This document shows positions 2,746 through 3,852 of a DNA stretch of 56,198 nt, piece by piece (position 1 is the first letter of the stretch; the number at the start of each line of letters is the position of its first letter). The notes beneath the pieces are model-generated. The model was not told the origin of the DNA and did no database searches. It was given only the letters and a program-made list of their open reading frames with translations. The stretch is taken from NCBI GenBank assembly GCA_029945665.1, contig JAQSCZ010000009.1:1-56198 (forward strand), read 5' to 3'. The translations under genes and the position numbers were made by a program. The DNA comes from a bacterium (GTDB lineage Bacteria; Bacteroidota; Bacteroidia; NS11-12g; UBA955).

Positions 2746-3004
2746 GATTTAAGTATATTATTAGGACTATAATAAATCATTAAAAAAAATCTCCCCCCTT
2801 TCTGCACGTTTACTCTTTACCACAGGTGAAAGAAAATCGTTAACAATTTTGTAAAAATAGGATATTTCAATATACAAAAATCAGAATGGTAAAAATTATT
2901 TGTTTTTTTTGTTAATAATATTGAGATTTTGTAATTTTTTATAAAAACCATTTTTGGCTATTGTTTTACAATGTGATTCAAATAATCATACTGAGCTTAA
3001 ATAC
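2746..3004. other. AT-rich intergenic stretch without a recognisable gene
   Basis: Between the start of the GltD-like gene and the first long repeat I see no open reading frame of note, no tRNA-like fold and no clear TAnnTTTG box facing the GltD-like gene. A poly-C run near 2793-2799 and several T-runs occur. The only structured piece is a truncated repeat motif at 2987-2999. Confidence 0.5.
2987..2999 (+). repeat. Truncated copy of the repeat core motif
   Basis: TCATACTGAGCTT is identical to the first 13 bases of the 19-bp core motif found at 3034-3052 and 3301-3319, then diverges. It lies 18 bp before the first full repeat and looks like a decayed extra unit. Confidence 0.55.
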
Positions 3005-3217
3005 ACAAATCTTATCGCGAGCCACGCACTTCGTCATACTGAGCTTGTCGAATGTATAGACGAAGTGAACGACAATTATTAGCTTTAGTCAACACTTTTG
3101 AGTGCGCTAAGGTCAGGCATAGTCGCGCTTCGACAGGCTCAGCATGACCGACATTGGGGTTAGCTCTATTGGTGCGTAAGTTTTAGCATGGTTGCGCTTC
3201 GACAGGCTCAGCATGAC
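3005..3217. repeat. 213-bp direct repeat, copy 1, with inverted palindromic units
   Basis: This block is identical, as read by eye, to 3272-3484, with a constant offset of 267 bp. Inside, TCATACTGAGCTTGTCGAA (3034-3052) faces two inverted relatives, TTCGACAGGCTCAGCATGA at 3129-3147 and 3198-3216; the forward motif matches the reverse complement of the others at 17 of 19 positions. A 9-bp perfect stem, CACTTCGTC (3027-3035) with GACGAAGTG (3059-3067), places the forward motif in a hairpin. The two inverted units also share flanks (GCAT before, ATTGGGGTTA or ATTGGGTTA after), so the block itself seems to have grown by smaller duplications. The pattern is like REP/BIME elements. Confidence 0.9.
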
Positions 3218-3271
3218 AGCGATTGGGTTACTTTAAATTTGTGTTTGTTTTGAAAACTTGAGGTTGTCTAT

Positions 3272-3484
3272 ACAAATCTTATCGCGAGCCACGCACTTCG
3301 TCATACTGAGCTTGTCGAATGTATAGACGAAGTGAACGACAATTATTAGCTTTAGTCAACACTTTTGAGTGCGCTAAGGTCAGGCATAGTCGCGCTTCGA
3401 CAGGCTCAGCATGACCGACATTGGGGTTAGCTCTATTGGTGCGTAAGTTTTAGCATGGTTGCGCTTCGACAGGCTCAGCATGAC
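3272..3484. repeat. 213-bp direct repeat, copy 2
   Basis: Identical by eye to 3005-3217; the core motifs fall at 3301-3319 (forward) and 3396-3414 and 3465-3483 (inverted). A 54-bp spacer (3218-3271) separates the copies. The right end lies 98 bp before the start of the GIY-YIG nuclease gene. The lack of any mismatch implies a recent duplication or gene conversion. Confidence 0.9.
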
Positions 3485-3582
3485 TGAAAGTTGTTTGAAA
3501 TACTTTTGATTTTAGCATGCTAATTTTTCTTTAACATCATAAAAAAATTTTTAAAGATCAAAATAAAGATCAATTTCGAAAA

Positions 3583-3852
3583 ATGAAAATGATGTATGTA
3601 TATATTTTAGAATGTTCTGATAATTCGCTCTACACAGGTGTAACCAATGATATTGACAGACGCGTTGAGGAACACCAGAATGGAAGCAATAAGGAGGCCT
3701 ATACATATTCCAGAAGACCAGTAAAACCGGTTTATTCAGAATTTTTCACTAACCCAACAGATGCTATTAATTTTGAAAAACAAATAAAAGGATGGAATAG
3801 AAAAAAGAAAATTGCTATTATTAAAGGCGACTTTAAGGAACTAGTTAAATAA
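3583..3852 (+). CDS. Solo GIY-YIG domain endonuclease-like protein
   Basis: 89 residues that form just one GIY-YIG domain of the small UvrC/URI-type group. VYI at residues 6-8 and YTG at 17-19 stand for the two halves of the name motif. An RR pair at 26-27 supplies the usual catalytic arginine, a helix with FEKQIKGWNRKKK (about 63-75) carries the metal-binding glutamate, and the C-terminus is basic. There is no partner domain for DNA recognition and no neighbour in its operon; the GT32 gene downstream is convergent. The gene directly follows the two 213-bp palindromic repeats, which suggests that the nuclease acts on or mobilises them, as RAYT proteins do for REP elements; that is inference. 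Two other ATG codons at residues 3 and 4 are possible starts. Biological function unknown. Confidence 0.85.
   Translation: MKMMYVYILECSDNSLYTGVTNDIDRRVEEHQNGSNKEAYTYSRRPVKPVYSEFFTNPTDAINFEKQIKGWNRKKKIAIIKGDFKELVK

Follow-up and report, generated by a model that had tools for sequence, protein, structure and literature searches.

Two long repeats filled with inverted copies of a short motif lie just upstream of a gene for a small GIY-YIG nuclease in the window, the 56,198-nucleotide stretch of bacterial DNA analyzed here. The question this locus raises is whether the palindromes and the nuclease belong together or are neighbors by chance. We consider it likely that the window locus is an aging copy of a two-part unit, in which a gene for a solo GIY-YIG nuclease is paired with REP-type hairpins that its product would recognize.

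The window locus and its dispersed motif copies

The initial annotation had described two perfect 213-bp repeats with inverted copies of a 19-bp motif, followed by a gene for a bare 89-residue GIY-YIG domain, and this description holds in full. The repeats occupy 3005-3217 and 3272-3484 at a spacing of 267, are the longest perfect direct repeat there, and stop 98 bp upstream of the ATG at 3583. With up to 3 mismatches allowed, the 19-mer has 6 copies in the window, all inside 3034-3483 with 2 forward and 4 reverse, versus 0.01 matches on average in 100 shuffles. The reading frame at 3583-3852 on the forward strand matches PF01541 (E 1.1e-19) over residues 3-76. With imperfect matching the repeat unit reaches 255 nt (93% identity). 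The features of the locus are as follows.

From 2987: partial motif copy at the start of repeat unit 1
2992-3246, no strand: repeat unit 1 (perfect core 3005-3217), with 1 forward and 2 reverse motif copies
3034-3052, + strand: motif copy, loop type A, with a CGTC tag just before (3032-3035)
3129-3147, - strand: motif copy, loop type A
3198-3216, - strand: motif copy, loop type A
3259-3513, no strand: repeat unit 2 (perfect core 3272-3484), with 1 forward and 2 reverse motif copies
3301-3319, + strand: motif copy, loop type A, following CGTC
3396-3414, - strand: motif copy, loop type A
3465-3483, - strand: motif copy, loop type A
3583-3852, + strand: solo GIY-YIG nuclease gene, 89 aa (PF01541 match; alignment of relatives)

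The nuclease gene sits in the spacer between an oxidoreductase gene, presumably GltD-like, and a glycosyltransferase gene, both on the opposite strand. The active-site residues Y17, G19, R27, and E65 are invariant across 13 aligned relatives of the protein. Among solved structures, the best matches and closest by sequence are the UPF0213 proteins 1zg2 (E 8.5e-19) and 1ywl (E 4e-14), which are listed as hypothetical proteins with no repeat link given there. Searching NCBIfam produced no matches, and the 5 Rfam matches at E up to 1 were none of them near the gathering score. Relatives of the nuclease occur in 23 phage records and 32 plasmid records, all at less than 60% identity.

The longer motif TCATRCTGAGCYTGTCGAA has 6 matches in this genome, only at the window locus. 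The core CTGAGCYTGTCGAA has 22 copies, 6 at the locus and 16 elsewhere, with 0 for the reversed control. On reading, the GTC tag precedes 15 of the 16 copies elsewhere, and the 5-bp stem is perfect in 10, with differences in stem sequence among them. They are better hairpins than the copies adjoining the window gene, whose outer stems are imperfect; because of this imperfection, the strict hairpin pattern described below scores none of the window copies (loci L007 and L130). Two window copies folded as DNA were no more stable than shuffles.

Tagged hairpins beside solo GIY-YIG genes

Relatives of the nuclease were gathered by protein similarity in one scan, and the best 80 of 145 were analyzed. 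The core with at most 1 mismatch was found within 500 bp at 13 of these best 80 loci, with no match for the reversed control, and on reading, the flanks of the relatives held further repeats of one shared architecture. We also counted repeated 13-mers in flanks of ±600 bp without reference to any motif, taking overlapping comparison windows from the same loci; owing to this overlap, a Fisher value for the comparison serves as an indication only. Clusters were present at 39 of the 80 loci versus 88 of 2966 overlapping windows at a threshold of 30, at 45 versus 169 at a threshold of 15, and at 57 versus 297 at a threshold of 8.

A strict pattern (GTC, a 5-nt stem starting with A, GA, 4-24 nt, GA, and the reverse complement of the stem) gave 119 hairpins in the 94,018 bp lying no more than 600 bp from a gene versus 17 in the 1,172,931 bp farther away, an 85-fold enrichment per base. 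Such a hairpin stands beside the gene at 47 of these best 80 of 145 relatives, with 17 distinct stems among them, and the other 33 loci have no strict hairpin. When the tag, the first base, or the inner letters were altered in 13 control patterns, 9 gave 0 near the gene and the remaining four gave 1, 4, 5, and 5; the two controls with 5 near and none far may therefore catch kin of the same repeats. Among the records with strict-hairpin loci are ones named Bacteroidetes, Alphaproteobacteria, Nitrospirae, Nitrospinia, Chloroflexi, Clostridia, Bifidobacterium, Gottesmanbacteria, and Berkelbacteria.

Since the strict pattern was derived from some of the 80 loci, further sets are the more independent checks. 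For alpha-proteobacteria we took 29 loci of the best PF01541 matches after searching 115 genomes. Strict GA/GA or perfect CGTC-type hairpins lie within 500 bp at 11 of the 29, amounting to 23 hairpins in 27,990 bp near the genes versus 5 in 52,728 bp far from them, and four permuted tags, applied to the CGTC-type pattern only, gave 0 near. Seven of these loci are bracketed, with "+" hairpins upstream and "-" hairpins downstream (L211, for example, at -42 and +67). Ten genomes reached via loci, with the 10 starting loci excluded, yielded hairpins at 3 of 15 short-frame loci and at 0 of 5 long-frame (UvrC-like) GIY-YIG loci; one of the 3, L179 of Parvibaculum, has textbook CGTC REPs on both sides. 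In the window's own order, the motif lies within 600 bp at 19 of 30 GIY-YIG loci, or 15 of 26 without the window's clade, these 30 having been found by a profile of motif-linked nucleases, a bias in their favor, and the nine weakest of them all lacking the motif. The co-location first seen in the window is real and extends beyond it.

As a separate observation, tandem half-motif arrays flank the GIY-YIG match at L092, where GTGAGCCTGTCATG-like units precede the match and AAGCTCAGGGTGACAG-like units follow it.

To examine covariation, cores were taken without demanding any stem, and shuffled arms served as background. Among 166 distinct type A copies, stem positions 3 and 4 are paired in 77% and 72%, versus 29% and 34% when shuffled; among 120 type B copies the values are 92% and 85% versus 36% and 35%. 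Type D, a looser class, pairs at these positions in 38% and 45% of 111 copies versus 25% and 30%. Pairing from position 6 onward is near background. These values show that the hairpin stem of 5 bp covaries. GTC stands directly before the stem in 117 of the 166 type A copies, and the GA facing GA inside it would permit sheared G-A pairs.

The hairpins are also oriented. Upstream of the genes the nearest hairpins are 29 "+" and 8 "-", and downstream 24 "-" and 12 "+"; counting all near hairpins gives 41 "+" and 17 "-" upstream and 34 "-" and 27 "+" downstream. Hairpins lie on either side of the gene at 26 loci, and at 15 of these the tags of the closest pair face outward (counted by reading). 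In four Chryseobacterium loci (L218, L220, L221, and L225), a longer inner-loop variant occurs in the left, the right, or both hairpins, a distribution that looks as if the variant had been swapped between the two.

Loop types, nuclease relatives, and the RAYT alternative

For comparison of loop type with nuclease sequence, 118 labelled loci were thinned to 81 at 85% identity. Loci with an ambiguous label or none, and domains shorter than 60 aa, were left out, and the loose loop class D was kept only with at least 3 matches and no other type. The nearest-neighbor nuclease has the same REP type for 60 of the 81, versus a mean of 20.2 and a maximum of 37 in 2000 shuffles. On the nuclease tree, built from an alignment of only 89 columns and with 36 of its 78 inner branches open, REP type changes 19 times versus 43.2 when shuffled, a number as low being reached in 0 of 200. 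Loop type follows the nuclease tree. Part of this agreement is plain common ancestry of the gene and its flanks, yet types change between near relatives: Chryseobacterium has three small groups in three places with three loop types, and the closest row to the window nuclease by path, L050, is type B while the window is type A. The loop types hint that the sequence of a nuclease could be mapped to its target. We consider it very probable that the enzyme acts on these repeats.

At the level of whole genomes the association is looser. Of the order's 108 genomes, 23 carry the core CTGAGCYTGTCGAA and none its reversed control. A match to the A1 profile at 1e-12 is present in 11 of the 23 motif genomes versus 18 of the 85 others (odds ratio 3.4, p 0.016), and the four best matches (E below 1e-45) are in genomes with 10 to 30 cores. 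The expectation that the motif would be absent where the gene is absent holds only partly, as 12 of the 23 motif genomes are without a strong cognate at 1e-12; six of the 12 are less than 90% complete. PF01541 searches of these 12 found matches in 11; the 29 loci fetched comprise 16 frames of at least 450 aa and shorter ones, some broken or at contig ends, and the motif is at 0 of the 29. Dispersed repeats therefore outlive the enzyme or arrive without it. The proposed tie between REP-like palindromes and solo GIY-YIG genes is thus partly supported, by the co-location and by loop type following nuclease clade.

Y1_Tnp genes are more strongly associated with the motif than the nuclease is, being present in 16 of the 23 motif genomes versus 22 of the 85 others (odds ratio 6.5, compared with 3.4). 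Such a correlation would be expected if the repeats were part of a RAYT (Y1/HuH) system and lay near GIY-YIG genes by chance or through shared niches. Location contradicts this link: the motif is within 600 bp at 0 of 30 Y1_Tnp loci of the order and in none of the whole fetched flanks, as against 19 of 30 GIY-YIG loci. We therefore read the genome-level correlation as a shared tolerance of repeats, reject RAYT as the driver of the GTC/GA repeats, and give this explanation almost no weight. Clusters of repeats of one sort or another are nevertheless present at 22 of the 30 Y1_Tnp loci (L343-L372), where they are unlike the GTC/GA type, as well as at 19 of the 30 GIY-YIG loci. In related genomes each of the two enzyme classes thus has repeats of its own.

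A further explanation is that long spacers in general accumulate such repeats, which would serve as terminators or mRNA-stabilizing hairpins, and that the small gene merely sits in such spacers. It agrees with the finding that 20 of the 27 dispersed copies fetched lie outside open frames of at least 100 aa, but it sits poorly with the 85-fold enrichment, the orientation bias, the loop types following the nuclease tree, and the absence of the motif near Y1_Tnp genes. We regard it as highly unlikely.

Known systems, movement, and inheritance

Solo proteins of the GIY-YIG superfamily that act as site-specific single-stranded nucleases, the Ssn family, were reportedly described in Nature Communications in 2025. 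They are said to cut single-stranded DNA at a Neisseria genomic repeat, with an effect on transformation; the target is reportedly repeated in many genomic copies, and thousands of homologs are said to have target sequences of their own. The window gene shares the solo domain of about 90 aa and the intact active site, and its cognate is repeated too, with 22 core copies in the genome and 6 adjoining the gene. The repeats here are GA/GA hairpins of Bacteroidota and other phyla that bracket the gene and have signs of movement, which may set them apart from Ssn. By analogy, the nuclease of the window probably belongs with Ssn and works in the same way, and action on single strands, likely in our judgment, leans on the reported Ssn work. 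Because of this family, the idea of a solo GIY-YIG gene paired with a repeat may be less new than the initial annotation implied. The present analysis adds the nature of the cognate repeats, which are CGTC or CGTC-like REPs and bracket the gene in several phyla.

CGTC REPs have a CGTC or TGTC tag, A(T) at the stem foot, and a short palindrome with an 8-9 bp stem and a 4-5 nt loop, and paired units have their tags outward; Bacteroidetes and alpha-proteobacteria are listed as carriers (Di Nocera et al. 2013, PMC3733652). According to that report they have no dedicated enzyme, and the enzyme serving them, if any, is left open (PMC3733652). The window type likewise has the CGTC/TGTC tag at its end and A(T) next to it, as the 3034 and 3301 copies show, but differs in its 5-bp outer stem and internal GA/GA. 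Because pairing covers 5 positions and then falls to near background, we call the window-type hairpins CGTC-like and not members of the CGTC class. Perfect 7-11 bp stems stand beside GIY-YIG genes of alpha-proteobacteria, L120 and L149, and solo GIY-YIG genes flanked by textbook CGTC REPs do exist. Taken together, the co-location, the bracketing, and the matched evolution single out the solo GIY-YIG nucleases as candidates for the enzyme of CGTC REPs.

The layout is also that of REP/RAYT systems (REPtrons), with one small enzyme gene beside or between tagged palindromes and dispersed copies elsewhere, except that the enzyme there is a Y1 HuH transposase and here an unrelated GIY-YIG protein, with separate repeats in the same genomes. 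GIY-YIG homing endonucleases have an extra DNA-binding domain and a gene within an intron or target gene, in contrast to the window protein of 89 aa, which is the domain only and is encoded in an intergenic spacer. A literature search covering titles and the starts of abstracts, in mostly non-subscription sources other than preprints, showed, among the papers listed, none linking GIY-YIG to REPs and none on these repeats.

Several comparisons bear on movement. A search of 78 Chryseobacterium genomes gave matches in all, and among the 30 loci fetched for one site the unit is full-length at 14, shortened at 2, and missing at 14. Seven genomes without the gene at this first site have a relative of it at another place, next to a gene that we take by eye to be murC. 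A palindrome with the same outer arms is still there at the gene-less sites, and loss is therefore as possible as gain. A single REP of about 29 bp is present in genome G056 and absent from G050, with alignable flanks, and the gene lies on opposite sides of the same neighbor in L089 and L094. Between L114 and L119, the alignment spans only the outer edge of one hairpin to the outer edge of the other, and the two loci have no common neighbors except one weak match (26% identity).

Other comparisons indicate stability. The window locus is common to four species of its genus and is vertically inherited there, and the main Chryseobacterium site is collinear among carriers. A second REP site sought in the genus (L265) gave no informative comparison. 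L048 and L049, where the DNA match to the window stops near the gene, were considered as moved copies and rejected when protein comparison placed them in the same locus context. The suggestion of a mobile system in the initial annotation is thus favored by presence and absence of the unit, by the single REP that differs between two genomes, and by the change of side relative to a neighbor, and opposed by vertical inheritance in the genus. Movement is a supported possibility: the nuclease may help the repeats spread, and together with the bracketing repeats it may form a moving REP element.

The main competing explanation involves no mobile unit: a host nuclease would limit or shape DNA exchange, for instance through cleavage of incoming single strands at the repeats, and the repeats would be kept as its targets. 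Vertical inheritance, both within the genus of the window and at fixed Chryseobacterium and Pedobacter sites, and the conserved active-site residues accord with a host gene, as would the Neisseria Ssn protein by analogy, which reportedly has a host-type role in limiting or shaping DNA exchange. However, a host gene would have no obvious need for the outward-tag bracketing of about 15 of 26 loci, and the comparisons that favor movement (presence and absence of the unit, a REP gained or lost singly, a gene found on either side of its neighbor) speak against it. We consider this explanation less probable than the two-part unit, while giving it appreciable weight.

If the locus is a copy of such a two-part unit, the nuclease would bind the hairpin in DNA made single-stranded by replication, transformation, or repair and would cut one strand at or near the tag. 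After such a cut, REP-flanked DNA could more readily be excised, inserted, or recombined in a biased way, and by this route single REPs, and rarely the whole REP-gene-REP unit too, would spread; the 16 core copies elsewhere in the genome would be non-autonomous descendants. That the enzyme moves the repeats is, in our estimate, a little short of evenly balanced. More tentatively still, CGTC and CGTC-like REPs with solo GIY-YIG genes could constitute a second, HuH-independent REP class, in which a hairpin-nuclease-hairpin unit of about 400 bp with tags outward would move itself and its hairpins by single-strand cleavage, its loop specificity shifting with the nuclease, which would be the missing CGTC enzyme. 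If movement is true, REPs would be spread by a nuclease fold distinct from HuH, and an explanation would be at hand for many of the anonymous palindromic repeats in genomes.

A different small gene, presumably for a protein like the four-helix-bundle (S23-type) proteins as judged by eye, was noted at L297 (G000 C42) and L298 (G044 C8), where it lies in opposite orientations in two species. The corresponding spacer of two other species is without it, and the site is orthologous to L269 (G056 C42).
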